This document shows, piece after piece, positions 20,107 through 38,905 of a stretch of DNA of 64,000 nt. This DNA is from Maridesulfovibrio salexigens DSM 2638 (lineage in GTDB: Bacteria; Desulfobacterota; Desulfovibrionia; Desulfovibrionales; Desulfovibrionaceae), in assembly GCF_000023445.1 (NCBI RefSeq), contig NC_012881.1:377501-441500 (forward strand), read 5' to 3'. The notes below the pieces were generated by a model that worked only from the letters and a program-made list of their open reading frames with translations, made no database searches and was not told the DNA's origin. Both the position numbers and the translations under genes were made by a program. The number at the start of each line of letters is the position of its first letter. Position 1 is the first letter of the stretch.

Positions 20107-20147
20107 TAATCTAAACTCCTTTCCACTTGATCAACATGGAGGTGGAA

Positions 20148-22346
20148 GTGGCTAAAGACAAGACCAGGCTTTCCCGCCGTGACTTTTTTAAGGCCTCCGG
20201 GATGCTGGCCGCTGCCGCAGCCGGGAGTGTCCCCGCACTGGGCGGACTCGAAGCGGCGTCCGCACAGACAACTAATTCATCGGGTAAATGGGAATCGGCC
20301 TTTTCGGCCTGTGACATGTGCTTCAACAAGTGCGGCTGCATCGCCCGTGTTCAGGACGGTGTGGTCAAGAAACTTGATCCCAACCCTAAATTTTTAAAAT
20401 CCAGAGGCATGCTCTGCGCACGCGGTAATGCCGGTGTCGCACAAATGTATGCTCCTGACCGTCTCAAGTATCCCCTTCTCAGAAAGGGCGAGCGCGGTGA
20501 GGGCAAATGGCAACGCATTCCGTGGGATGAAGCCATCGATATGATGGCGGAAAAGATGCAGGACATCCGTCAGAAGTATACCCCCTGTGGGCATCTCTTT
20601 ACTGCCGGAGCCGATCTGCAATCCAAGTTTGTAGGCCGTTTTGCAGAAGTGTACGGATCATACAACGTGACTTCCCACGAATCCCTCTGCCTGCTCAGCG
20701 GGAGCCGTGCCTTTCTTGATACTTTTGGCGAAGTTCCTTTCGCTGACGTTCTCAACAGTAAGTATATCATCATGGCCGGGGCCAACCGCTTTGAAGCTCT
20801 TGTTACCCCTGATTCCATAGACCTGATGACCGCCATGCAGAAGGGCTCCAAGCTTGTGGTGCTCGACCCGCGCTATACCAAGACCGCAGCATTGGCGAAC
20901 GAATGGTATCCCATCCAGCCCGGTACGGATATGGCCTTCATGCTCGCACTGGCGCACGTCATCATTAATGAAGAGCTTTATGACAGGAAGTGGATCGCCG
21001 AGAAGACCTACGGCATTGATCAGCTTCGCGAACATGTGCAGAAATATGATCCCCGTTTTGCTGCTGAAGAGTGCGGCATTCCTGCGCAGGACATCGCACG
21101 CATAGCCCGTGAACTGGCTGCTGCCGCTCCTGCTTCCATGATTTATCCCGGTCGCCGTACTTCCGATTACAAGAATTCCACGCAGGTTCGCCGCAGCTTT
21201 GCCATTGTGAACGGTCTGCTTGGAAACTGGGACCAGCCCGGAGGGCTGCTGGCCGCACGTGAAGTGGGACTTAAAGGCGTTCCTTACGATGCTCCCTGGT
21301 ATGACGATAATCCGGATGACCGCATTGATGCCCACAAGGTGCCCATGCTGTTTGAGCATGACGGATCGTTCGTCCTTACCCGTGATGCCATACTCGAAGG
21401 TAAGCCGTATCCCATCAAAGGCTGGTTCGTATACAAGACCAATCCCATGGGAACAGCACCCAACCGTGCTAAGACCATTGAGATGTGCAACTCCATGGAA
21501 TTCATGATTGTTGTGGATATTGCCATGAGTGATACCGCATGGATGGCTGATCTCGTACTGCCGGCCCCAAGCTATCTTGAGCGGCAGGATCCGGCGTCAG
21601 GTCTTCAGGGCTCTGTTGCCTGTGCTTGTGTTGTACAGCGAGATCCGGTGGTTCCGGCTCTATATGAGTCCCGCCCGGTTTTCGATGTGCTTAAGGATGT
21701 GGCAGGAAAGCTGGAACTTGGCGAATACTTTGATTTTACCATTGAAGAGTACCGTAAGCAGCAGTTGCGCGACCTGCCCGGAGCCGCAGAAGCCTTCAGG
21801 AAAGACGGGGTCTATTACAACCCCAGTAAGGTTTACGGTATTTATGAAGACCGTGTTTACAAAACACTGAGTAAAAAGGTTGAACTTTACAACCAGCGTT
21901 ACGAAAAAATGGGCGTGGACCCAATGCCGGTTTACACTCCGCCTGCCAAGCCGCCTAAAAACAGGTTTCGCATGGTTGTGGGCCGCAGTGCATCGGTAAC
22001 CCAGACCTCATCCCAGAACAACACGGTTCTGCATCAGCTTACCGGACCGAACACTCTCTGGCTGAATACCAAGGCTGCCGACAAGCTGGGTATCAAGCCC
22101 GGAGATCTGGTCGAAGTAGCCAGTTCTGTCGGCAAGGGTGAACTCAAGGTGGAAATCACTGACGGCATTCTTGAGGATACCGTGTATATGCTTTCCGGTT
22201 TCGGCGCGTTGTCTCCGCAACTGAGCCTCATCTTCGGTGAAGGAGCCAGCATGGCTGCCGTATTGCAGGAAGGATATGATGAAATCTGCGGTAACGCGGC
22301 CCTGCATGAAACATTTGTTTCCGTAACAAGGAAGGTGGCCTCATGA
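20148..22346 (+). CDS. Phs/Psr-type molybdopterin oxidoreductase catalytic subunit
   Basis: A 732-residue bis-MGD enzyme. A GTG at 20148 is chosen because GGAGG lies 5 bases upstream; the frame is open back to a TTG at 20127. A Tat signal (LSRRDFFKASG, then Ala-rich) exports it. An N-terminal [4Fe-4S] motif CDMCFNKCGC..MLCARG is present, and SHESLCLLSGS gives a Cys Mo-ligand, as in thiosulfate (PhsA), polysulfide (PsrA) and related reductases. Downstream genes supply an iron-sulfur subunit and a cytochrome b, the PhsABC arrangement. Rhodanese neighbours support a sulfur substrate; thiosulfate, polysulfide or tetrathionate cannot be separated by eye. Confidence 0.9.
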   Translation: MAKDKTRLSRRDFFKASGMLAAAAAGSVPALGGLEAASAQTTNSSGKWESAFSACDMCFNKCGCIARVQDGVVKKLDPNPKFLKSRGMLCARGNAGVAQMYAPDRLKYPLLRKGERGEGKWQRIPWDEAIDMMAEKMQDIRQKYTPCGHLFTAGADLQSKFVGRFAEVYGSYNVTSHESLCLLSGSRAFLDTFGEVPFADVLNSKYIIMAGANRFEALVTPDSIDLMTAMQKGSKLVVLDPRYTKTAALANEWYPIQPGTDMAFMLALAHVIINEELYDRKWIAEKTYGIDQLREHVQKYDPRFAAEECGIPAQDIARIARELAAAAPASMIYPGRRTSDYKNSTQVRRSFAIVNGLLGNWDQPGGLLAAREVGLKGVPYDAPWYDDNPDDRIDAHKVPMLFEHDGSFVLTRDAILEGKPYPIKGWFVYKTNPMGTAPNRAKTIEMCNSMEFMIVVDIAMSDTAWMADLVLPAPSYLERQDPASGLQGSVACACVVQRDPVVPALYESRPVFDVLKDVAGKLELGEYFDFTIEEYRKQQLRDLPGAAEAFRKDGVYYNPSKVYGIYEDRVYKTLSKKVELYNQRYEKMGVDPMPVYTPPAKPPKNRFRMVVGRSASVTQTSSQNNTVLHQLTGPNTLWLNTKAADKLGIKPGDLVEVASSVGKGELKVEITDGILEDTVYMLSGFGALSPQLSLIFGEGASMAAVLQEGYDEICGNAALHETFVSVTRKVAS

Positions 22347-23098
22347 GTAAGACAGTACAACTCGCAATGGTCATCGATTCGTCAAAGTGCATAGATTGCA
22401 AGGGCTGCATGGCTTCCTGCAAGGTCGCCAACGATGTGCCGGACGGTCAGTGGCGTAACTGGATCAAGGCTTCCGTGCCGGACTTTGCTTCCGGCAAACC
22501 GAAGACTCATTTCCAGCCCGGCGGCTGCATGCATTGCGACAATCCCACCTGTGTTCAGGCCTGTCCCACCGGGGCGACTTTCAAAGACAAAACAGACGGC
22601 ACTGTACGCATCGACACATCACTGTGCATCGGTTGCGGCAACTGTATGCCCGCTTGTCCCTATGATGCGCGTTTCCGTAATGAAATTACCCGCAAAGCCG
22701 ATAAGTGCGATTTCTGTGCTGATCGCCGTGCGCAGGGATTGCTCCCCGCATGTGTGGACACTTGTCCCACCAAGGCCCGGGTTTTCGGTGACATAAACGA
22801 TCCCGACTCTGAAGCTTACAGACTGCTTCAGGAAAACAAGGGCAAGCTGGTCCGTGTGATCAATGCCAAGTCGGATACCAAGCCGAACATGATCTATCTC
22901 GGCGAAACCGCTCCGCTGGAATGGCCAGTGGAAGCGAGAATGCCTACTGCAATGGATGTACTGACCACCATGGTCAACCCTGTGGTTAAGACCGTGGTCG
23001 GCCTTTCAGGACTCGGAGTGGCGGTTATGCTGGGCCGTCAGCTTCTGGTCGGGTCCGATGAACATGACGACTCCCGGAGCAAGGGAGGTGATGCCTAA
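22343..23098 (+). CDS. Four-cluster ferredoxin subunit (PhsB/PsrB type)
   Basis: 251 residues with four [4Fe-4S] motifs: CIDCKGCMASC, CMHCDNPTCVQAC, CIGCGNCMPAC and CDFCADRRAQGLLPACVDTC. A C-terminal hydrophobic segment (about 212-232) follows, which probably anchors it next to the cytochrome subunit. The ATG overlaps the stop of the catalytic subunit by 4 bases and its own stop overlaps the next start by 1, so the three subunits are translationally coupled. Confidence 0.9.
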   Translation: MSKTVQLAMVIDSSKCIDCKGCMASCKVANDVPDGQWRNWIKASVPDFASGKPKTHFQPGGCMHCDNPTCVQACPTGATFKDKTDGTVRIDTSLCIGCGNCMPACPYDARFRNEITRKADKCDFCADRRAQGLLPACVDTCPTKARVFGDINDPDSEAYRLLQENKGKLVRVINAKSDTKPNMIYLGETAPLEWPVEARMPTAMDVLTTMVNPVVKTVVGLSGLGVAVMLGRQLLVGSDEHDDSRSKGGDA

Positions 23099-23817
23099 TG
23101 AGTCAGAGACAATACAAGCGGCATGACCGCTCGGACATCTTTATCCACTGGTTCAACGCAGTCTGCTGGTTCCTTTTGCTGGTAACCGGACTGGGACTTT
23201 TCGGTAACCCGGAAATTGATCCGCTTGGCTCAGGTTATCCGGCCTTTATGCGTTCATTGGTTGGCGGAGGAGGGAACCTGCTGATCATCCATGTCACCCT
23301 CGGCCTCATCTGGGCTGGTGGTCTGCTTTTGTACATGCTGATCAATTTTAAGGGAGCTGTCTTCTTTTTGAAGGAAATCTTCATGGTTGATCCGGCTCGG
23401 GACATAACCTGGATGATCCGCAAGATGATCCTTATGACCGCCGGACCTAAATTGCTGGGCAAGAATTCCGAATTGCCCGATCAGGGGTATTACAACATGG
23501 GCCAGAAGGCTTTTGCTCAGGCTTCTGTTGTGGGTGGTGTCGTGATCGTTGTGACCGGGATCATCATGTTCCTGTCCGACCAAACCTTAGGTGCGGAACA
23601 TATGGCCTTGGTCAGTTGGTCCATCACCCTGCATTACCTTGCCGTAGGTCTGGTCTTCGCAGGTCTGCTGGTACACATCTACATGGCGGCCATATCACCG
23701 GAAGAAAAGCCCGGATTCCGTTCTATGTTTACCGGACATGTTCCCGAGGATTACGCCAAGCATCACCATAAACTCTGGTACGAGCGGGTAAAAGATAACC
23801 CTTCGTCTGAAGTTTAG
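23098..23817 (+). CDS. Cytochrome b subunit (FdnI/PhsC type)
   Basis: A 239-residue membrane protein with four main helices and the paired His residues expected for b-heme ligation (DIFIHWFNAV near the start; IHVTLGLIW; LHYLAVGLVF..LVHIYMAA near the end). It belongs to the formate-dehydrogenase gamma/PhsC cytochrome b family, not the NrfD/PsrC type. It would link the menaquinone pool to the periplasmic molybdoenzyme. It starts at the last base of the ferredoxin stop codon. Confidence 0.88.
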   Translation: MSQRQYKRHDRSDIFIHWFNAVCWFLLLVTGLGLFGNPEIDPLGSGYPAFMRSLVGGGGNLLIIHVTLGLIWAGGLLLYMLINFKGAVFFLKEIFMVDPARDITWMIRKMILMTAGPKLLGKNSELPDQGYYNMGQKAFAQASVVGGVVIVVTGIIMFLSDQTLGAEHMALVSWSITLHYLAVGLVFAGLLVHIYMAAISPEEKPGFRSMFTGHVPEDYAKHHHKLWYERVKDNPSSEV

Positions 23818-23866
23818 CGCAAAAATCAAACACACAAAGCGGCGAAGCCATACTAAAAGGGGTTAA

Positions 23867-23883
23867 GGTCCCCGGCAGGGACC
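23867..23883 (+). other. Small intercistronic hairpin
   Basis: 6-bp stem GGTCCC / GGGACC with a 5-base loop in the 110-base gap between the cytochrome b and rhodanese genes. There is no U-run and read-through is expected. The rest of the gap shows only a GGGAG ribosome-binding site before 23928. Confidence 0.4.
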
Positions 23884-23927
23884 GCCGGTAGGCCGCATCA
23901 CAATAAAAAGAGCAAAGGGAGAATTAC

Positions 23928-25040
23928 ATGAGGAAAATGCAGTTTTTCAAGGTAGTGGTACTGGCACTGTGTCTGGCGTTCATAGCTGCACCGGCCATGG
24001 CTAAGGAAGTTGTCCCCAAGAGTAAGATGCAGGACTGGATGTACAAGGACATGGTTGATACCGACTTTGTTGCCAAGTACGCCAAAATGCCCAAACCTGA
24101 AGGCGTGATGATCATTGATTCCCGTCCTTACAAGGGCAAGTATATCCTTGGATATATTCCTACTGCTGTCTCCATTCCGGATTCAAAATTTGACGAGATG
24201 ACCGACAAGCTGCCTAAAGACAAAAACACCCTGCTCATTTTTTATTGTCAGGGCCTTAAATGCAAATTGAGCCACAAGTCAGCTAAGAAAGCTGTAAAGC
24301 TTGGCTATAAAAACGTAAAAGTATACCCCTATGGGTACCCCGGCTGGATGAAATCCGGTCGCTATGGCGGTATCGGCCTTGAAACTGTTGCCGAGATGAT
24401 GGCTAACGGCGACCCTTACATGCTGATCGATGCCCGTCCGACCAAGAAGTTTCTGGCAGGTTCCATTCCGTCAGCTATCTCCATTCCCGATTCCAAATGG
24501 GCTAAGCGCACCGGCCTGCTGCCCGCAGATAAGAAAAACACCAAGCTTATCTACTTCTGCGGTGGTTATAAGTGCAAGCTGAGTCATAAGTCTGCCATCC
24601 GTGCAATGGGCATCGGCTATAAAAACGTGCATGTTGCCGAAGCAGGATATCCTGGTTGGAAGAAAATGTTCGGTGCATCCGGTGCTGTTGAAGTTAAGTC
24701 CGGCGGCGAAGAAGGCAGCATCGATATTGAGCAGTTCAAGAAGATTGTTGCTGAAAATCCGAACTCAATCATGTTGATCGATGTTCGTGATGCTGATGAA
24801 TACGCGCAGGGCCATATTCCCAGTGCTGTGAATATGTCAGTGGACATGCTTGAGAAGAAGATAAAGACACTCCCCGCTGACAAGCCCATCGTGTTTGTAT
24901 GTACAACCGGAGCACGCAGCGGCGAAGCTTACTACATGACCTTGGACATGCGTCCTGATATTAAGAAAGTATATTACCTTGAAGCTGAAACCGATTTCCA
25001 TAAGGACGGTTCCTTCACAATTCATACCCCCAAAAAATAG
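23928..25040 (+). CDS. Periplasmic three-domain rhodanese
   Basis: 370 residues. A signal peptide (about 1-25) is followed by three rhodanese domains. Domains 1 and 2 are recent duplicates with active-site loops YCQGLKCKLSHKSA (Cys107, Cys112) and FCGGYKCKLSHKSA (Cys211, Cys216), a CxxxxC pattern. Domain 3 has a classical CTTGARSG loop. The enzyme would transfer sulfane sulfur in the periplasm next to the Phs/Psr-type reductase. The paired-Cys loop suggests a persulfide/disulfide relay and is the direct template for the selenocysteine version in the next gene. Confidence 0.88.
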   Translation: MRKMQFFKVVVLALCLAFIAAPAMAKEVVPKSKMQDWMYKDMVDTDFVAKYAKMPKPEGVMIIDSRPYKGKYILGYIPTAVSIPDSKFDEMTDKLPKDKNTLLIFYCQGLKCKLSHKSAKKAVKLGYKNVKVYPYGYPGWMKSGRYGGIGLETVAEMMANGDPYMLIDARPTKKFLAGSIPSAISIPDSKWAKRTGLLPADKKNTKLIYFCGGYKCKLSHKSAIRAMGIGYKNVHVAEAGYPGWKKMFGASGAVEVKSGGEEGSIDIEQFKKIVAENPNSIMLIDVRDADEYAQGHIPSAVNMSVDMLEKKIKTLPADKPIVFVCTTGARSGEAYYMTLDMRPDIKKVYYLEAETDFHKDGSFTIHTPKK

Positions 25041-29116: not shown

Positions 29117-30739
29117 TTACAGGAAGTAATTAACTGCCGCTAGGCCGGTCAGGGACATTGTGATGGTGTATGGTAATGCCAGCATTACCATCCGGCCGTA
29201 TGAGAGGCGTATCACCGGTGCAAGAGCTGATGTCAGGAGAAAGAGGAATGCAGCCTGACCGTTGGGGGTCGCCACACTGGGGATGTTGGTCCCGGTGTTA
29301 ATGGCAACGGCCAGCTTGTCGAAGTGGTGCATGATCTCAAGAACTTTTGTAGCGGTAGCCTGAGGCATGCCTGCGACAACATCGATCCTCGCCAGATGAG
29401 GATCGGTAAGCTTTTCCATCAGAGCCTGAGCGCTCATACCGATGTCAGGGAGAGTCCCCAGCAGGTTGATAAAGTGAAGTTTTGTTTCTGATATATAAAC
29501 AGTAGCCACAAATACGTTGTCAGAAATTGCAGAGAGCAATCCGTTGGCAATGTAGTATGCGGCAAGCTGAGTATGTCCCTGCATGCTGAGAACGAACTCA
29601 ATGATCGGGTGGAATATTTCCTGATCATGGATCACAGCCACGATAGAGAAGAAGACCACCAGCAGAGCGGTAAAAGGAAGTGCTTCTTCAAAAGCCTTAC
29701 CAAGCTGGTGCTCTTCGATATAGCCGTTCATGGAAGTCAGGAAGATGATTACAGAAAGTCCGATGATCCCCACTGCAGCAAGGTGAAAAGCAAGAGCCAC
29801 GACCAGCCAGACCCCGGTCAGGGATTGGATGATCAGTCTGGTTTTGCCTGCCTGACCTTGTTTTTCTTCCATTTTTACCGCTGTTTCGAGCAGGTGTGAA
29901 CGTATGTTTCCGGGCAGTTTTGCGCCGTATCCGAAAAGATGAAATTTTTCCACAGTCATACAGGTCAGCAAGCCCACTGCAAGCACAGGCAGGGATACGG
30001 GCATTACTTCCAGAAAGAATTCCACAAAATGCCAGCCCATTTCACCGCCGATAAGCAGGTTCTGGGGTTCACCAACAAGCGTACATACTCCGCCCAATGC
30101 AGTACCGACAGCACCGTGCATCATCAGGTTGCGCAGGAAGGCCCGGAATTCTTTAAGGTCTGAGCGGTTCTTTTCAATTACCGCCTGATCGCTGCAAAGG
30201 TCGTGCTCGCAATGCAGTGTCTTGCCGGAAGCAAACCTGTGGTAGATATTGTAGAAACTGTAGGCCACGGCAATGATGACCGCAGTAACGGTAAGGGCAT
30301 CCAGAAAAGCGGACAGAAATGCTCCGGCAAAGCAGAACATTAATGAAATGGCGACCTTGGAATGAACCCGGACCAGAATGCGGGTAAAGGTGAATTGCAG
30401 GAATTCTTTCATGAAGTAGATACCGGCGACCATGAAGATCAGCAGCAGTATAACCTCAAAGTTATTCAGTGCTTCGTGGTAGATGGTTTCTGTTGAAGTC
30501 AGGCCCATGAACACTGCTTCGATGGCCAGCAGTCCGCCTGCTGGAAGGGGGTAGCACTTCAGTGCCATTGCCAGCGTGAAAATGAATTCACCGATTAATG
30601 CCCAGCCTGCAACCTGTGGTCCGGCTGTGAGCATGAGTACGGGGTTGATGACCAGAAAGGCCAGAATAACTTGCTTGTACCATTTGGGAGCATGGCCGAG
30701 GAAGTTGTTTCCGAGTGATTGCAGGAATGTCTGCTGCAT
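29117..30739 (-). CDS. nhaB: Na+/H+ antiporter NhaB
   Basis: A 540-residue membrane protein with about twelve helices and NhaB signatures: [15 protein letters not shown] near the start, [19 protein letters not shown], and [20 protein letters not shown]. It exports sodium in exchange for protons. Length matches E. coli NhaB (513 residues) with a small extension. Its presence suits a marine or brackish habitat. It is transcribed alone or with the SLC13 gene located upstream on the same strand. Confidence 0.93.
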
Positions 30740-30836
30740 CAGAATCTCCTTTTATAATTCATGCCGGATATCGCGCGGCAGTATCCGTTTGTCGTGCTCT
30801 TTTCCGGTATAGTTTGCGTTTCTATTTATGGCAGGT

Positions 30837-30875
30837 GGAGGAATATCCGCGAAATTGCTGGGCGGATATTCCTCC
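30837..30875. terminator. Hairpin downstream of the SLC13/TrkA-C gene
   Basis: Perfect 14-bp inverted repeat GGAGGAATATCCGC / GCGGATATTCCTCC with an 11-base loop, 42 bases after the stop of the minus-strand gene ending at 30917. No clear U-run follows, so Rho-independent termination is uncertain. Confidence 0.55.
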
Positions 30876-30916
30876 GGGGGAGTGCTAGCGTAAGGTCCTT
30901 GAAATAAGGTTTGGTG

Positions 30917-32716
30917 CTAATAAAGTATCATCAGAGCGGAGATCATGACGGCCATATACAAGATGGTCATACCGGTCCCGGCACGGACGTAGTCGACTGT
31001 TTTGTATCCTCCGGGGCGCATAATCAGGGCGTTAACCTGATGGGTTGGCAGAACGAAGGTGTTCGAAGCTGCGACCGCCACAGTCAGGGCTGCGATGCGC
31101 GGATCGACTCCGGCATTGAGGGCCATGTTCATGGACAGGGGCACCAGTAGGACTGTTGCGCCTACATTTGAGGCCACCAGAGTGAAGAACGAGGTCAGCG
31201 CACCGATTACAGTCAATAGAATCAGGGCCGAGGGGTGTCCCAATGCGGCCATGATGGTGTCTGCAATATATTTTGCTGCCCCGGTGTTCTCAAAAGCCAT
31301 GCCCAGCGGGATAAGACCGCCGAGTAGGAATACGGTCATCCAGTCTACGGACTGGTATGCTTCATCAATGCTCAGGACTTTGGTCAGAACCATTCCCAGT
31401 GCGCCGGTCAGCAGTGCGATGGAGAGCTGAATGTGCAGGCCGAGGATCATGAACAGGGAAACCGCCAGCCACATGAGGGCCAGTTTTGCCTTTTCAGTGC
31501 GCAGGATTTCGCCTTTTACTTCTTCGGTAAATACAAAGTCCGGACGGTCTTTGAGCATGTGGAACATTTCCCAGCGACCATGCAGCAGAAGGGCATCACC
31601 GGATTCTAAGCGCAGGTCGGTCAACCCGCTGATGAACAGTTTCTCGCCCCTGAAGATTGCCACCGGGGAAACCTGAAAGCGGTTACGGATGCCCAGAGTA
31701 CGCAGTGTTTCGCCTACAAGTTCTGAGCGTGGGGTGATGATACCTTCCATGAGTCCGGCATTGTTGGGAGAAAGTTCTTCGGCAAAGGTTTCAAGGTCGT
31801 CCTTGAGAGCCCAGCCGTAGTCCGCAGCCATGCGCTGCACAGATTCGATCGGGCCGACCACTGCAAGATGGTCTCCGGGCAGGATTACTTCCTGTGCATC
31901 CGGGGCGATCTTATGGTTTTTGCCGCGTTCGCGCGCAATTGCGACAATGGTTGAAAAATAAATGGGGCGTAGCTCAAGGTTCATGAGATCATGGTCGCAG
32001 CTCCATGTTTCAGGAACATGCATCTCATATAGGGAGCCGATGCCGCCGTATGTGTTGGCGAGCAATTCGGACATGGGGCCCGAAGTTTCGCCTACGTTTT
32101 TGCTGGGCAGGATGAAACGGCCCAGAATAATGAAATAGATGAGTGCGGCAACAAGAAGACAGATGCCTATAGGTGTTACCCCGAACATTCCGAAGGGTTC
32201 GTAATGTTTACCGCCTACGATCATAAGGTCGTTAAGCAGGATCAGAGGACTGGAGCCTACAAGGGTCAGGCAGCCGCCGATAATGGCGCAGAATCCCATG
32301 GGCATAAGCAGTCTGCCAACAGGAACTCCGGTCTGGTTGCCGATGCGTTTGGCTGCGGGCAGGAACAGGGCTGCGGCCCCGATATTCTGCATAAATCCTG
32401 AAATTATGGCGACAGTTCCGGCTATGAGTGACATGATCCTGGTTTCGCTTTTTCCTGCGAATTTAAGGATAACCCGTGCCAGGGAGTTCATTACGCCGGT
32501 CTTGTCCAGTCCGGCTCCGATGATGATAACAGCAATGATGGAGACGACAGCGTTACTGCTTAAACCGCTGATGGCCTGTTTTGGAGTAACAAGCCCGAGC
32601 AGGGGCAGTAAAACCATCATGATGATGCCGACTACGTCGACCCTCACCCATTCGAATATGAAAAGCAGCACCGCGAAGGCCAGTACTGCCATTACGAGAA
32701 GAATTTCTGGAGTCAT
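30917..32716 (-). CDS. SLC13/DASS-family carrier with two TrkA-C domains
   Basis: A 599-residue membrane protein. Two blocks of helices flank a central cytosolic region (about 210-400) containing two TrkA-C/RCK-C repeats (DHLAVVGPIESVQRMA and GDALLLHGRWEMFHML). The carrier part has SLC13 hallmarks (IGGCLTLVGSSPLILLND, SNVGATVLLVPLS, PTHQVNALIMRPGGYK). Such proteins move sulfate or dicarboxylates with Na+. In a sulfate reducer sulfate is plausible but not proven. A Usp-like gene lies 41 bases upstream in the same orientation. Confidence 0.87.
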   Translation of the reverse strand: MTPEILLVMAVLAFAVLLFIFEWVRVDVVGIIMMVLLPLLGLVTPKQAISGLSSNAVVSIIAVIIIGAGLDKTGVMNSLARVILKFAGKSETRIMSLIAGTVAIISGFMQNIGAAALFLPAAKRIGNQTGVPVGRLLMPMGFCAIIGGCLTLVGSSPLILLNDLMIVGGKHYEPFGMFGVTPIGICLLVAALIYFIILGRFILPSKNVGETSGPMSELLANTYGGIGSLYEMHVPETWSCDHDLMNLELRPIYFSTIVAIARERGKNHKIAPDAQEVILPGDHLAVVGPIESVQRMAADYGWALKDDLETFAEELSPNNAGLMEGIITPRSELVGETLRTLGIRNRFQVSPVAIFRGEKLFISGLTDLRLESGDALLLHGRWEMFHMLKDRPDFVFTEEVKGEILRTEKAKLALMWLAVSLFMILGLHIQLSIALLTGALGMVLTKVLSIDEAYQSVDWMTVFLLGGLIPLGMAFENTGAAKYIADTIMAALGHPSALILLTVIGALTSFFTLVASNVGATVLLVPLSMNMALNAGVDPRIAALTVAVAASNTFVLPTHQVNALIMRPGGYKTVDYVRAGTGMTILYMAVMISALMILY

Positions 32717-32757: not shown

Positions 32758-33369
32758 TTACCCGACTCTAAGTGTCGCTCGTGTGTACACCGGAATAGTT
32801 GTTCCGGCATTTTGGGTACGGATAACATCTTCCATAACGTAACGTAGTTCTTCGTCCTGATTATGGAGTTCGGCCACAACAGAATCTTCAGCACCTTGTT
32901 TTACAACGTGCGCGAAGCAGAGACCTGCTTCCTTCGCCTTTGTGGAGAAATGAGAGATATTTTTTTCGGATTGGGAACAGAAATCGGTGAAATTAGAGCC
33001 CCGTTCATCCAGATTTAGTGCGATCAAGCTACTTTTGGTTCTGGCAGCCATTTCAACTGCATAGCTTACTACTTTGCCGGAAAAAGCGGCTCCCTTGCTT
33101 ACCACAAGGATTTTGCCGCCTGAGCAGGTACATTCAGAAAGGCCGTTTACCAGCTCGTTATTATCCTTTTGGACAACTTCTTTCTTAGTGTTGCCGGATA
33201 AAAATCGGTTGAATAAAGTTATCAAGAAAACCTCCCTCTCTGTGGGGTCGACTAAAGCCTGATCCCGGTTGATGGCCCACGCTCCGACATTACAGGTGTT
33301 GCTTCGATTTGCTGCCTTTGATGCATAATAGCGTTCCAAAAGACCGAAAAATCCTTGTTCTGTGGCCAT
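32758..33369 (-). CDS. Universal-stress-protein-like cytosolic protein
   Basis: 203 residues from the ATG at 33369, chosen because AGGAGG lies 4 bases upstream (the frame extends 21 codons further without a ribosome site). The N-terminus (FFGLLERYYASKAANRSNTCNVGAWAINRD) is not typical. The C-terminal part (about 85-190) has a Usp-like alpha/beta fold: ILVVSKGAAFSGKVVSYAVEMAARTKSSLIALNLDE. No clear ATP-binding G-2x-G-9x-G motif is seen. Coupling to an SLC13 carrier suggests a regulator of the transporter. Confidence 0.7.
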   Translation of the reverse strand: MATEQGFFGLLERYYASKAANRSNTCNVGAWAINRDQALVDPTEREVFLITLFNRFLSGNTKKEVVQKDNNELVNGLSECTCSGGKILVVSKGAAFSGKVVSYAVEMAARTKSSLIALNLDERGSNFTDFCSQSEKNISHFSTKAKEAGLCFAHVVKQGAEDSVVAELHNQDEELRYVMEDVIRTQNAGTTIPVYTRATLRVG

Positions 33370-33504
33370 GGTGCCTCCTGATTGTTGTTTCCTTCCTTGA
33401 ACTTGCCCCTCATAAATCAATATCCATGCCAAGGCTTATTTTTTATAAAAAGTCTTTAGAAACAATAGTTTATGGAAAAAGGCGTTTGGGTGGGTTTTTA
33501 TTGG

Positions 33505-33521
33505 TGTTGCTATCTGCAACA
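33505..33521. promoter_or_regulatory. TGTTGC-N5-GCAACA operator-like palindrome 1
   Basis: TGTTGCTATCTGCAACA: a perfect 6+5+6 inverted repeat, about 350 bp upstream of the receiver-Lon start. It is one of three related sites. Confidence 0.65.
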
Positions 33522-33581: not shown

Positions 33582-33598
33582 TGTTGCTTTTTGCAACG
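33582..33598. promoter_or_regulatory. TGTTGC-N5-GCAACA operator-like palindrome 2
   Basis: TGTTGCTTTTTGCAACG: a perfect 5-bp-arm inverted repeat (GTTGC/GCAAC), 77 bp from copy 1, on a similar face of the helix. Confidence 0.65.
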
Positions 33599-33748: not shown

Positions 33749-33765
33749 TGTTTCAACATGCAACA
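33749..33765. promoter_or_regulatory. TGTTGC-N5-GCAACA operator-like palindrome 3
   Basis: TGTTTCAACATGCAACA: the same motif with one mismatch in the left arm. It is just upstream of the AT-rich block that may hold the promoter of the receiver-Lon gene. Confidence 0.55.
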
Positions 33766-33871: not shown

Positions 33872-35920
33872 ATGAAATGGTTTGGCAGGAAGAGTGCTGA
33901 GAACACGCGCTCTGAAGAGAATATAAATGATACCCATGCCGGGCTGGAGAACGTAACTGAAAGTATGGCTGATGATATCTGCAAGCGAGTGGATTCAGCC
34001 GACCTTCCTGCTAATATTATGAACACTGTCCGTGAGGAATGTGAACGTCTTCTCAAGCTGGATAATACTTCTCCGGAATTTCACATTGTTCACAGCTATT
34101 TGGAATTTATCCTTTCCCTACCATGGAATGAAACGACCAAGGACGACTTGGATATTCAAAAGGCAAAGGGAGTTTTGGATGCCCGACATTACGGCTTGAA
34201 CAGTGTAAAAGAGCGCATTCTTGAATTTCTTGCTGTAAAAAATCTGCGCAGCCGGATCAGTCCGAACCTGATTATTGCCGATGATGAAGTTATTGCCCGG
34301 GAAAACCTATCCATAATTTTTGAGCACGAGGGCTTTGCTGTAAGAACTGTGGGCAACGGCTTGGAAGCTGTTGCAGCTATGGAAGAAGAGCCTGCGGACA
34401 TCGTGATTACCGACTTGAAGATGGATGGAATGGACGGCCTTGAGCTGCTGGAAGTTTTACGAAACCGTTGGCCTGATACCGGAGTGATCATGCTTACCGG
34501 TTACGCCACAGTGAAGACGGCAGTTGAAGCCATGAAAAACGGGGCTGATCAATATCTCGGAAAGCCGGTTAATCTGACCCGTTTACGTGAGCATGTGCAG
34601 GATCTATTAAGTCGTAACCGTCGCATTCAGGGGTTGCAGGGACCGGTCCTTTGCTTCAGCGGTCCTCCCGGAACCGGTAAGACGTCTATAGGTTGCGCCA
34701 TAGCAGAATCGTTAGGGCGTGAGTTTATTTGCATGTCGTTGGCCGGACTGCGGGATGAATCCGAATTGCGAGGGCATCGCCGTACTTATGTGGGAGCTAT
34801 GGCCGGAAGAATTCTGCAAAATATACAAAAAACAGGCGTTCGCAATCCGGTAATAATGCTGGATGAAATGGATAAGATTATTCAGAATTTTCAAGGAGAC
34901 GCAACTTCCGTACTTCTGGAAATATTGGATCCGCAGCAAAACTCTGCTTTTGTGGATAATTATCTGGGACTCCCTTTTGATCTTTCCGGCGTGCTGTTTA
35001 TTGCTACAGCCAATATGGTGGAGCGGATACCGGAGCCCTTGATGGATCGTATGGAGATGATCGAATTTTCGAGCTACACCCCCGGCGAAAAATTGCAGAT
35101 TACGCAGAATTACATGTTGCCTAATCAATTGTTGAAACATGGTTTCTCTGTGAATGAGCTGGAAGTTGCTCCGGACGCATTGAACACAATCATTGCAGAC
35201 TATACCCGCGAAGCCGGATTGCGCGGTCTTGATAAACAGATTGCCTCGCTTTGCCGCAAACTGGCCCGGCGTAGGTTGTCAGGTCAGGAAGAAGCTCTTC
35301 CGATCAAACTTGCTGCGGCGGAGATCCACGGAATCATGGGGCCTCCACCACATTTCAGTGCCACAGTCACTAAAATGCTGAAGACAGGAGTAGCTACCGG
35401 TCTTGTCTGGTCGGAAAATGGAGGCGAGATAATTTTTGTTGAGGCGGTTAGGATGCATGGAAGTAAGAATCTGTTGCTGACCGGATCGCTTGGAGAAGTG
35501 CTCAGGGAATCCGCTCAGACAGCGTTGAGTTTTTTGCGGGCTAATGCCGGAAAGTTCGGGCTTTCAGATGATTTTTTCGAGACCTCGGATATCCATATTC
35601 ATATACCAGCCGGGGCGGTGACCAAGGAAGGTCCTTCTGCCGGGGTGACTATTGCGGTGGCAATGCTTTCGCAGTTAACCGGACGCATGGTGCGCGAGGA
35701 TATGGCTTTCAGCGGTGAAATCACATTGCACGGGGACGTGCTGCCTGTAGGCGGGGTGCGTGAAAAGGTAATGGCGGCTGTCAGGGCCAGGATCAGCACT
35801 ATAGTCCTTCCTGCAAAATGCGCTCAGGCCGTTGAACAGCTTGAAGATGAAGTCTTGGGAGGTCTGGAGGTCAGGTTGGTTTCCAGACTTGAAGATGCAC
35901 TGGAAGCTGCTCTGAATTAA
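33872..35920 (+). CDS. Lon-type protease with inserted response-regulator receiver domain
   Basis: 682 residues from the ATG at 33872 (GGAGG 5 bases upstream; the frame is open to 33809). Residues about 35-126 match the helical Lon segment just before the AAA+ core (SYLEFILSLPWNE; HYGLNSVKERILEFLAVKNLR). A complete receiver domain follows (about 132-246: DDE start, acceptor Asp181 in ITDLKMDG, Lys231 in LGKP). The Lon AAA+ module then resumes with Walker A GPPGTGKT (264-271) and Walker B MLDEMD. The protease domain has the Ser589 (EGPSAG) / Lys632 (REKVMA) dyad. The large N-terminal substrate-binding domain of Lon is missing. Phosphorylation probably gates unfolding or proteolysis. Confidence 0.92.
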   Translation: MKWFGRKSAENTRSEENINDTHAGLENVTESMADDICKRVDSADLPANIMNTVREECERLLKLDNTSPEFHIVHSYLEFILSLPWNETTKDDLDIQKAKGVLDARHYGLNSVKERILEFLAVKNLRSRISPNLIIADDEVIARENLSIIFEHEGFAVRTVGNGLEAVAAMEEEPADIVITDLKMDGMDGLELLEVLRNRWPDTGVIMLTGYATVKTAVEAMKNGADQYLGKPVNLTRLREHVQDLLSRNRRIQGLQGPVLCFSGPPGTGKTSIGCAIAESLGREFICMSLAGLRDESELRGHRRTYVGAMAGRILQNIQKTGVRNPVIMLDEMDKIIQNFQGDATSVLLEILDPQQNSAFVDNYLGLPFDLSGVLFIATANMVERIPEPLMDRMEMIEFSSYTPGEKLQITQNYMLPNQLLKHGFSVNELEVAPDALNTIIADYTREAGLRGLDKQIASLCRKLARRRLSGQEEALPIKLAAAEIHGIMGPPPHFSATVTKMLKTGVATGLVWSENGGEIIFVEAVRMHGSKNLLLTGSLGEVLRESAQTALSFLRANAGKFGLSDDFFETSDIHIHIPAGAVTKEGPSAGVTIAVAMLSQLTGRMVREDMAFSGEITLHGDVLPVGGVREKVMAAVRARISTIVLPAKCAQAVEQLEDEVLGGLEVRLVSRLEDALEAALN

Positions 35921-37260
35921 TTGTCTTTTTCCAGTCCGAGCCGTTTCATCTTGCGCCACAGTGATACGCGGTCAATGCCGAGTATCTTGGCTGCTTGAGT
36001 CTTGTTTCCATTGGTTGCCAGCATGACTTTTTCAATATGGTCGCGCTCAACTTCCTCAAGGGTTCGCAGCGGTTTATTGCGGTCAATATTGCGGATTTCC
36101 TCGGGCAGCAGGTCCGGGGAAAATACAGTTCCCCGTGCCAGAGCCAGTGCCCGCTGGGAAATATTCTCAAGTTCACGGACATTTCCGGGGAAGGAATAGT
36201 TCATCAGGATATCCAGCGTTTCCTGTGAAATGGTGTCGATGGATTGGGTTTCGGTGCGATGCTTTTCCAGAAAGTGGCCGATCAGGACCGGAATATCCTC
36301 ACGGTGGTCTCGAAGCGGTGGTGCCGAGAGGGTGACCACATTCAAACGGTAGAAAAGGTCCTGCCTGAAGGTTCCATTTTTAACTTCTTCCTTCAGATCG
36401 CAGTTGGTTGCGGAAACGACCCGGATATCCACTGGAATTTCCTGCGTTCCGCCGACCCTTAGAAAATTTCTTTCTTGCAGCACCCGTAGAAGCTTTACCT
36501 GCATGTTCAGGGGTAGTTCGCTCATCTCATCGAAGAATACCGTGCCGCCGTTGGCAACTTCCAATATTCCTTTTTGTCCGCGCTGTGCTCCGGTAAATGC
36601 TTCGCGCTCGTGTCCGAAGAGTTCTTTGTCCATGAGTTCGGCTGTGAATGTCCCGCAGTTGATAGCCATAAACCGTTCCTGTGAACGGGGGCTGAGCATG
36701 TGAATTCCGCGGGCGATGAGCTCCTTGCCTGTTCCGGTTTCACCTTGGATAAGGACGTTGCAGTCCATGTGCGCTAGTTGTTCGATAGTTTTTTTCAGCT
36801 TAATGATCTGGTCACTTTGGCCCACCAAAGGAAAATCCTGTTTCCCTTCTTCAAGTACCTGCCGCAAGCGCAGAACTTCAACAGAGAGAGCCTGCCGTTC
36901 AAGGGCATTAAAAACCTGTGCTCGAAGTTCATCCAGATTGAGCGGTTTGGCTATGTAGGAGTGTGCTCCTTTCTGCATGGCTATAACCGCAGTATCAACT
37001 GAGGCATGTCCGGTTATGACAATTACTTGAGTGGACGGCTGGATTTCCTTTATGTGTTCCAGCAGTTCGATACCGTTCATGCCCGGAAGCATAAGGTCGG
37101 TCAGTACCAGTTCGAATTCCTGCTTTCCGATTTTTTGCAATGCTTCAGTGCCTGAGCTTACGGCAACGACCATATGTCCTGCCTCAGTCATAACATGGGT
37201 CAGGTTGTCCCTTGCAATGGCTTCGTCTTCTACAATGAGGATGTTGGCGTGGCTGATCAT
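35917..37260 (-). CDS. Sigma-54-dependent response regulator
   Basis: 447 residues: receiver (Asp55 in LTDLMLPG, Lys in YIAKP), AAA+ domain (GETGTGKE, DEMSELP) and Fis-type HTH (KTQAAKILGIDRVSLWRKM). The sigma-54 contact loop reads EAFTGA, with Glu in place of the first Gly of GAFTGA. The receiver strongly resembles the one inside the convergent Lon protein (EDEAIARDNL against DDEVIARENL). Its stop codon overlaps the Lon stop by 4 bases, and its start overlaps the upstream kinase gene by 4 bases. It likely regulates the Lon gene and others. Confidence 0.91.
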   Translation of the reverse strand: MISHANILIVEDEAIARDNLTHVMTEAGHMVVAVSSGTEALQKIGKQEFELVLTDLMLPGMNGIELLEHIKEIQPSTQVIVITGHASVDTAVIAMQKGAHSYIAKPLNLDELRAQVFNALERQALSVEVLRLRQVLEEGKQDFPLVGQSDQIIKLKKTIEQLAHMDCNVLIQGETGTGKELIARGIHMLSPRSQERFMAINCGTFTAELMDKELFGHEREAFTGAQRGQKGILEVANGGTVFFDEMSELPLNMQVKLLRVLQERNFLRVGGTQEIPVDIRVVSATNCDLKEEVKNGTFRQDLFYRLNVVTLSAPPLRDHREDIPVLIGHFLEKHRTETQSIDTISQETLDILMNYSFPGNVRELENISQRALALARGTVFSPDLLPEEIRNIDRNKPLRTLEEVERDHIEKVMLATNGNKTQAAKILGIDRVSLWRKMKRLGLEKDN

Positions 37261-38672
37261 ATTGTGTGTTCCTTATCGAGCGGCAGGGTAATGTAAAAAC
37301 TAGTACCTTCGCCCGGACTGCTTTCCGTTCTGATGCTGCCCTGATGCTTTTCTATGATTCCGTAGACGATGTACAGCCCCAATCCTGTTCCCTGTCCGAC
37401 TTCCTTGGTGGAAAAGAAGGGATCAAATATGCGTTCCATAATTTCCGGGGACATGCCTTGTCCTGTGTCATTGACTTTGATGACTGTGTTTTCCTGATCC
37501 ATAAAGGCGGTGACAGTGATTGAACCGGGGTTGCCTTCGATGGCCTGCACTGCATTGATGAGCAGATTGATAAATGCTTCCTGCAACTTGCGGCGGTCAG
37601 CGTGAACAATGATGTGTTCAGGAATTTCCATGGAAAGGCTGATATTTGACGGGACCTGACTGGAGACAAGGTCCATTGCTGATTTCATGACCATGTTGAT
37701 TTCAACCGGTCCCGGTGAATATTCGCTTTCACGCGAGAATTCCAGCAAACCTTTGACTATATCCCGCGCGCGCAGGGTTTCCTGCATAATGTTATTCATC
37801 ATCCGGTCAGAAAGTTCGTCCTGACCTTTTTGCCGCTCCTCAAGGATCTGGCAGGAGGTAGAAATGTTGTTCAGGGGGTTATTCAACTGGTGTGCAATAC
37901 CTGAAGAGAGCGTGCCGATGGATGAAAGCTTTTGGGCCTGCACCAACTGTCGGCGACGTTTGGCCAGCTGTTCGACCATGGAATTCAAGGCGGCAAAGAC
38001 CTGTTGAATTTCATCATGTGAATTCTTAATCGGCAGGGGGTTGAATTTTCCTTCCGAGATTCGGCGGGTTGCTTCCTGCACTTCGCGAAGCGGTTTGAGA
38101 ATGTTTGAGCTGAAAAAGAGAACAAGGGCCATGATGACTATGGCTATGCCGATCATGGACAGGGTGAGGTTGGAACGCAGTTCGCGGTTGATACTGAGGA
38201 TATATTTACGTTCGAAATTGGAGATGGCTTTGGAAAGGCCTACCATAGCTTGTCCGGTTTCACGGAGATGGTTGTTCAGATCTTTGTCCTCAGTTGAAGC
38301 CTCTTTCGGGGTAAATTTAAGCTGTAGCAACAGTTCCCGGTAATTGTTCAGGTTTGATTTCAGTTTTTTACCGGTTTGTTTTTTTTCGGGCTTCTTGAAT
38401 TCACCCATAAGATCTTCTAGAAGGGTGTCGGCCCGTTTAAGGTAGTCCAGTCCGAGGGTGAACAAGGCAGGGTCATGATATAGAAGGTAGTTTTTTTCAA
38501 TGCGGCGGACTTCAAGAATCAGACTGCTTAAATCGTCACTGCGTTCAATAAGCAGAACTTCGTCTTCAAGCTGTAGGGTATTCACAAAAGACAGCAGCCC
38601 CAGACAGCCGAAGCAGATTGAAAAAATGATGATCCCGATGATGATTTTCTGGCGAATATTCAATTTAAGCAC
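37257..38672 (-). CDS. Membrane sensor histidine kinase
   Basis: 471 residues from the GTG at 38672, preferred because GAGGGG lies 8 bases upstream; the frame is open to 38729. A membrane helix near the start and a second at about 180-200 bound a helical periplasmic sensor region rich in Lys/Glu. HAMP (SSNILKPLREVQEATRRISEGKF), HisKA (SSGIAHQLNNPLNNI) and HATPase (DTGQGMSP, GTGLGLYIV) follow. The sensed signal is unknown. It is co-transcribed with the sigma-54 regulator, and it is a candidate phosphodonor for the Lon receiver as well. Confidence 0.9.
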   Translation of the reverse strand: MLKLNIRQKIIIGIIIFSICFGCLGLLSFVNTLQLEDEVLLIERSDDLSSLILEVRRIEKNYLLYHDPALFTLGLDYLKRADTLLEDLMGEFKKPEKKQTGKKLKSNLNNYRELLLQLKFTPKEASTEDKDLNNHLRETGQAMVGLSKAISNFERKYILSINRELRSNLTLSMIGIAIVIMALVLFFSSNILKPLREVQEATRRISEGKFNPLPIKNSHDEIQQVFAALNSMVEQLAKRRRQLVQAQKLSSIGTLSSGIAHQLNNPLNNISTSCQILEERQKGQDELSDRMMNNIMQETLRARDIVKGLLEFSRESEYSPGPVEINMVMKSAMDLVSSQVPSNISLSMEIPEHIIVHADRRKLQEAFINLLINAVQAIEGNPGSITVTAFMDQENTVIKVNDTGQGMSPEIMERIFDPFFSTKEVGQGTGLGLYIVYGIIEKHQGSIRTESSPGEGTSFYITLPLDKEHTI

Positions 38673-38905
38673 ATTAATACCCCTCGTTAAACTCTGCAGA
38701 GGTTGTAAACCTACGACTACTGGACTCAAATGGCAATTGTGAGTTGATATTGTGGACAGACGGTAATGTAGTTCTCAGGTTCCTATAGTTTTTTGTGATG
38801 TAATCATCGAAATCTCCGGTCCTATCATATACAATGCCTGAAAAAGACATTGACAGCTGAGTGCCATATTAAGCCTGAGCTACAGATTATTATATGGAGA
38901 AAATT

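Follow-up and report, generated by a model that had tools for sequence, protein, structure and literature searches.

The window analysed here is the 64,000-nucleotide stretch of Maridesulfovibrio salexigens DSM 2638 at positions 377,501 to 441,500 of contig NC_012881.1. It carries a gene for a Lon-family protease with an inserted response-regulator receiver domain (REC), hereafter REC-Lon. A sigma-54 response regulator gene and a histidine kinase gene lie beyond its 3' end on the opposite strand, and genes for a small protein, a DASS/CitMHS transporter and NhaB are located upstream of it and divergent from it. The features are as follows, with positions counted from the first letter of the window.

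29117..30739, minus strand: NhaB sodium/proton antiporter
30917..32716, minus strand: CitMHS/DASS-type anion transporter
32758..33369, minus strand: small protein with a weak Usp match below the cut-off (13.9 bits, cut-off 24); its start is an ATG preceded by AGGAGG
33416..33431, minus strand: sigma-54-like element TGGCATGGATATTGAT before the divergent operon; its -12 element is GA, not GC
33505..33521, no strand: exact palindrome TGTTGC-N5-GCAACA, candidate regulator binding site
33582..33598, no strand: palindrome with one mismatch, 77 bp from the exact one
33749..33765, no strand: palindrome with one mismatch, upstream of REC-Lon
33872..35920, plus strand: REC-Lon protease gene, 682 aa, one unbroken frame
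33872..33892, plus strand: N-terminal peptide MKWFGRK, the local form of an MxFF[KR]K-like start
33932..34255, plus strand: helical segment, residues 21-128, which in ordinary Lon stands before the AAA+ core
34262..34621, plus strand: inserted receiver, residues 131-250
34412..34414, plus strand: codon of D181, the predicted phosphoryl acceptor, invariant in 59 of 59 REC-Lons
34646..35290, plus strand: AAA+ ATPase and lid, residues 259-473, with Walker A K270 and Walker B D331/E332
35315..35914, plus strand: Lon proteolytic domain, residues 482-681, with S589/K632
35917..37260, minus strand: sigma-54 (NtrC-type) response regulator, tail-to-tail with REC-Lon with a 4-bp overlap
37257..38729, minus strand: histidine kinase (HAMP, HisKA, HATPase_c), with a 4-bp overlap with the regulator gene

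Elsewhere in the window, ORFs at 20127-25040 resemble, as judged from their translations, a molybdopterin oxidoreductase, an iron-sulfur protein and a cytochrome b, followed by a triple rhodanese-like protein.

Architecture of REC-Lon

REC-Lon shares with LonA (TIGR00763; E. coli and B. subtilis Lon) the helical segment, the AAA+ core, the lid and the Ser-Lys protease domain, but it has a receiver at about residue 343 of E. coli Lon and no LON_substr_bdg domain. The first-pass annotation had described a Lon with a complete receiver (Asp181, Lys231) spliced in before Walker A, an intact Ser589/Lys632 dyad and no substrate-binding N-domain, and all of this was borne out. Alignment with Lon sequences fixed the insertion at E. 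coli residue ~343, where no Lon residues are lost. When the whole protein was searched with profiles, PF00072 matched with an E-value of 4.2e-29 (101.4 bits, cut-off 30.2) and Lon_C with one of 4e-67, and Pfam AAA also matched. D137, D181, K231, K270, D331, E332, S589 and K632 are invariant in all 59 aligned REC-Lons, that is, the window's and 58 of 68 REC-Lon ORFs (copies of the window's gene, L003, L086 and L130, were omitted, as were L006, L009, L087, L091, L101, L113 and L160). D138 and T209 are each kept in 58 of the 59, the one exception at T209 being an S. Against TIGR00763, the NCBIfam equivalog of ordinary lon, REC-Lon scores 659.9 bits and exceeds the cut-off of 608.05 bits, so automatic naming can hide the receiver.

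PF02190, the LON substrate-binding domain, gave no match in the window's REC-Lon at E <= 1, whereas it matched in all five ordinary Lons scanned. In a profile scan of the 59 REC-Lons it was absent from the 25 of 27 families listed, which means that no more than one of these proteins could match it at E <= 0.01. Because the N-terminal LON domain is missing, the window's protein is, by its sequence, a Lon-derived variant and not a standard LonA. In the place of the N-domain, REC-Lons have a short N-terminal peptide of hydrophobic and basic character, followed by a linker that varies; the peptide is MKWFGRK in the window and MIFFRK, MFFKK or MGLFSR elsewhere. A strict MxFF[KR]K-like pattern was found in 64 of 79 REC-Lon ORFs vs 8 of 2660 shuffles, in a count from which identical ORFs were removed and in which near relatives were counted and the window's gene stood in more than one cut. 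A looser pattern matched 77 of the 79, a figure that has no shuffle control and includes some apparently accidental matches. It is a speculation that this tip is a docking element or a pseudo-substrate.

In a single-chain predicted model of the whole protein, the strands and helices of REC alternate as in a receiver, and its last helix (residues 235-254) leads straight into the strand before Walker A (residues 259-263). NtrC-type sigma-54 regulators likewise have a receiver beside an AAA+ ATPase and presumed control by phosphorylation; unlike theirs, the output of REC-Lon is a protease, and its receiver is internal, not N-terminal. No REC-Lon chain was present among 37 PDB sequences and a further 50 matches listed, all of which were Lons.

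Distribution and origin of REC-Lon

A sequencing or assembly error that joined a receiver gene with a lon gene would be the simplest objection to this architecture. It can be ruled out, its probability being negligible, because the search for the same layout elsewhere, which the first-pass annotation had proposed, found it in many independent genomes, and the REC-spanning matches listed carry no internal stops. Of 149 genomes sampled from the same family, at least 63 have a match covering the receiver and Lon, a lower bound tallied by hand from the matches listed; all nine sampled genomes of the same genus are among them. At E <= 1e-150, REC-Lon was found in 34 of 297 sampled genomes of the phylum, plus one in which it is split over two frames; one contig scan used patterns from a single sequence and hence reaches close relatives. 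Its occurrence outside the phylum rests on the accessible part of Rajeev et al. (PMC3333781).

Some sequences depart from the common form. The REC-Lon at L250:1277-3308 has its receiver and Lon parts in different frames, by a frameshift or an assembly error. The REC-Lons of genus g38 (L257, L258 and L259) may contain additional insertions, since their Lon matches are interrupted close to the lid and within the protease domain. Four genomes of the phylum gave a high match that starts near residue 253. Three of them (G149, G351 and G331) turned out to have ordinary full-length Lons, and the fourth (G153) has a REC-Lon with its receiver and Lon parts in different frames.

When a tree was built from the AAA+-protease core, a single branch (SH-aLRT 100) separated 39 REC-Lons from 25 ordinary Lons. 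This tree kept 64 of 103 rows, after removal of matches below 250 bits, fragments shorter than 380 residues and REC-Lons more than 75% alike to a kept one, and the REC label was given by hand to L250, whose receiver lies in a different frame. A single insertion therefore suffices, and several independent insertions or losses are needless for the rows compared. The nearest ordinary relatives among those found are three full-length Lons, of which the two scanned (L247 and L249) both have the substrate-binding domain. These two observations suggest that REC-Lon probably arose from a normal Lon through one gain of a receiver and loss of the N-domain.

Neighbouring genes, related receivers and palindromes

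The first-pass annotation had also called for the neighbours of this architecture to be searched, and a sigma-54 regulator (>= 400 bits) and a histidine kinase (>= 290 bits) were both found in 53 of 68 REC-Lon loci, the window included. The regulator is present in 58 of the 68, and in 47 of the 53 loci with both genes it is on the strand opposite to REC-Lon. Under a stricter rule (regulator and kinase at most 400 bp apart on one strand) 46 of the 68 remain, 35 of which have the pair within 400 bp of REC-Lon. A similar transporter (>= 700 bits) occurs in 24 of the 68, some of the other loci stopping at contig ends. The NhaB gene lies directly downstream of the transporter gene (29117-32716), and both are retained in closer related loci. 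Some loci, such as L212, L217 and L232, have no kinase/regulator pair near REC-Lon; in these three genomes the regulator is present elsewhere. In 18 hand-picked genomes, the best regulator match scored 439-973 bits in 11 of 11 with REC-Lon vs 324-365 bits in 7 of 7 without it, even in genomes that have regulator and protease at distant places.

Such a gene set has been described. According to the accessible parts of Rajeev et al. 2011 (PMC3333781), DVU3303 of D. vulgaris Hildenborough is a Lon-containing response regulator that forms a 'three-component system' with the histidine kinase DVU3304 and the sigma-54 regulator DVU3305. They proposed that its protease activity depends on phosphorylation. 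DVU3305 regulates DVU3303-3305 and DVU3302-3298 (PMC3333781), and what was available of a sigma-54 study from 2015 gives the same targets (PMC4641369). The window matches this set in its REC-Lon, histidine kinase and sigma-54 regulator genes (35917-38729 for the latter two), a likeness drawn from the published descriptions and the gene neighbours. A further likeness is the target operon upstream, which in D. vulgaris encodes UspA-type domains and DVU3299, a putative anion transporter (PMC3333781, PMC10102598). The three D. vulgaris genes are treated as one operon, whereas the protease gene of the window is convergent with the regulator-kinase pair. In the part of a 2023 fitness study that could be consulted, the three genes were detrimental during growth on chlorate with all pairwise cofitness values > 0.9, and DVU3299, one of the targets, was important for that growth (PMC10102598). 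Given that the three are assigned to a single operon, part of this cofitness could be polarity. The central idea of a Lon controlled by phosphorylation has thus been in print since 2011, and the window holds a member of a described kind. The insertion point, the single-branch origin, the receiver kinship, the co-occurrence, the palindrome spacing and the N-terminal tip were not found in the accessible parts of the published accounts.

The receivers of REC-Lon and of the neighbouring regulator are related. Among 99 other matches to the Lon receiver in its own genome, the regulator's was the best (94.0 bits, next 75.4; E 2.6e-26 with 44% identity, next 1.5e-20 with 37%). In a tree of 185 rows, the Lon and partner receivers were set apart from 33 own-genome receivers with a support of 96, with two further neighbourhood receivers inside their group. 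In a random subset of 76 rows (22 each of the 78 Lon and 61 partner receivers), they were set apart from 32 with a support of 98. The 33 or 32 background receivers are a part of the 131 matches in the own genome, from the loci of the better ones; thirteen other neighbourhood receivers were in the larger tree and none in the smaller one or in the own-genome alpha-1 comparison. With 58 other sigma-54-type receivers added, Lon and partner receivers were not one clean side of a branch (three label changes, not one).

The alpha-1 helix is the main kinase-recognition helix in two-component systems. Over 40 same-locus pairs, helix identity was highest in alpha-4 (0.64) and alpha-1 (0.58), vs 0.44 and 0.23, respectively, to the 58 sigma-54-type receivers, many of which were fetched for their likeness to the Lon receiver and so form a harsh and uneven control. 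Of the 40 pairs, 27 had the cognate partner above all background receivers overall, and only 13 had it there on alpha-1. Between the Lon and partner receivers of the window, the alpha-1 identity is 0.44, a value that two unrelated receivers of the genome match. In view of the likeness between the receivers of Lon and of the neighbouring regulator, we consider it quite probable, from sequence comparison, that one kinase serves both.

In a rival reading, the Lon receiver would be a docking platform whose alpha4 face captures the partner regulator, or some other protein with a receiver, for degradation, which would make REC-Lon a negative feedback device and not an allosteric switch. The kinship of the two receivers and their shared alpha-1 and alpha-4 helices, with 0.64 identity in alpha-4 vs 0.44 to other sigma-54-type receivers, fit this idea. 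A protease that removes the regulator should, however, differ from it in fitness, whereas losses of the D. vulgaris protease, kinase and regulator have very similar effects in the consulted part of the fitness study (PMC10102598), unless polarity accounts for this. We regard such docking as unlikely.

All three palindromes lie within the 0.5-kb intergenic region upstream of REC-Lon. The 4.29-Mb genome has a single copy of the exact form. When one mismatch is tolerated the palindrome is found at 23 places, of which only three are here, vs 2 for the reversed control. With at most two mismatches, 55 of 68 loci had the palindrome in the 600 bp that surround the start of the REC-Lon frame, close relatives being counted singly. 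The controls gave far fewer loci: 4 for the reversed sequence, 11 for swapped halves, 1 and 0 for two other palindromes, 1, 3 and 1 for spacers of 4, 6 and 7 bases, 1 inside the gene and 0-3 for five shuffles. Among 45 spacings of 21-159 bp (820 bp searched, each distance once per locus), 16 were at 76-79 bp and 12 at 86-89 bp, two preferred values that differ by about one helical turn. This spacing is a mark of what are predicted to be paired regulator sites. Because of their position, and because DVU3305 is reported to regulate the matching D. vulgaris operons, the palindromes may be assigned to the neighbouring regulator as candidate sites.

The conserved site before the divergent operon alone stood out among sigma-54-like sites. 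It was the best minus-strand site at that place (once tied) in 16 of 18 related loci and the second-best in one; in the remaining locus, where the contig ends nearby, it was not found. Its score in a single locus is weak evidence, 0-10 of 100 shuffles reaching it in those 16 loci. No clear sigma-54 promoter was found before REC-Lon, the best plus-strand site falling inside its coding sequence, and the generic sigma-54 pattern showed no excess in the 64-kb window (33 found vs 43.2 expected).

Putative phosphorylation control of REC-Lon

The first-pass annotation had taken REC-Lon for a two-component system that acts through proteolysis instead of transcription. Control of Lon by a phosphorylatable receiver remains the best reading, as proposed for DVU3303 in the accessible text of 2011 (PMC3333781), but the restriction to proteolysis is too narrow. 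Three observations make two outputs most likely: the sigma-54 regulator and the kinase are tail-to-tail with REC-Lon, the receivers of Lon and of the regulator are akin to each other, and the protease gene is preceded by a conserved palindrome. We therefore favour, as reasonably likely, a branched two-component pathway that leads to both transcription and proteolysis, with REC-Lon as a Lon under the control of phosphorylation.

In such a pathway, the neighbouring histidine kinase would phosphorylate two related receivers, that of the sigma-54 regulator and that of Lon. From the paired palindromes, the regulator would drive the divergent stress/anion-transporter operon and probably REC-Lon as well. 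Phosphorylation of D181 would alter the alpha4-beta5-alpha5 face of the Lon receiver. This change may pass to the ATPase ring, since helix 235-254 of the receiver leads straight into strand 259-263 ahead of Walker A, and degradation of dedicated substrates would be turned up or down. The flexible tail with its conserved hydrophobic-basic tip may stand in for the lost substrate-binding N-domain. The phosphotransfer, the direction of the switch, the substrates and the role of the palindrome as the regulator's site are all inferred.

A passive receiver would be phosphorylated too, so that the domain might be structural or might buffer the kinase as a phosphate sink, leaving Lon activity independent of it; consistent with this, no biochemical test of phosphorylation control of the REC-Lon ATPase or proteolysis was found in the open-access literature. 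A sink, however, would not have to be fused to the base of the Walker A strand, and the receiver and protease residues are retained together across the sampled clade, so that we hold this explanation to be improbable.

An extension of the branched pathway with two outputs is tentative and rather doubtful as a whole. In it, the receiver at the root of the Walker A strand would be a phospho-lever on the AAA+ protease ring, the MxFF[KR]K-like tip would be a tethered pseudo-substrate or docking hook released by the switch, and one kinase would fire the transcriptional and proteolytic arms together, the whole having arisen once and spread through the phylum.

In conclusion, REC-Lon is real, well conserved and mechanistically attractive. 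The conserved residues, the partner kinase, the upstream palindromes and the N-terminal tip provide handles for cheap and concrete tests. If the favoured reading is true, phosphorylation-gated proteolysis in one protein would be a direct route from a signal to protein removal, and REC-Lon would be a usable design for switchable degradation.
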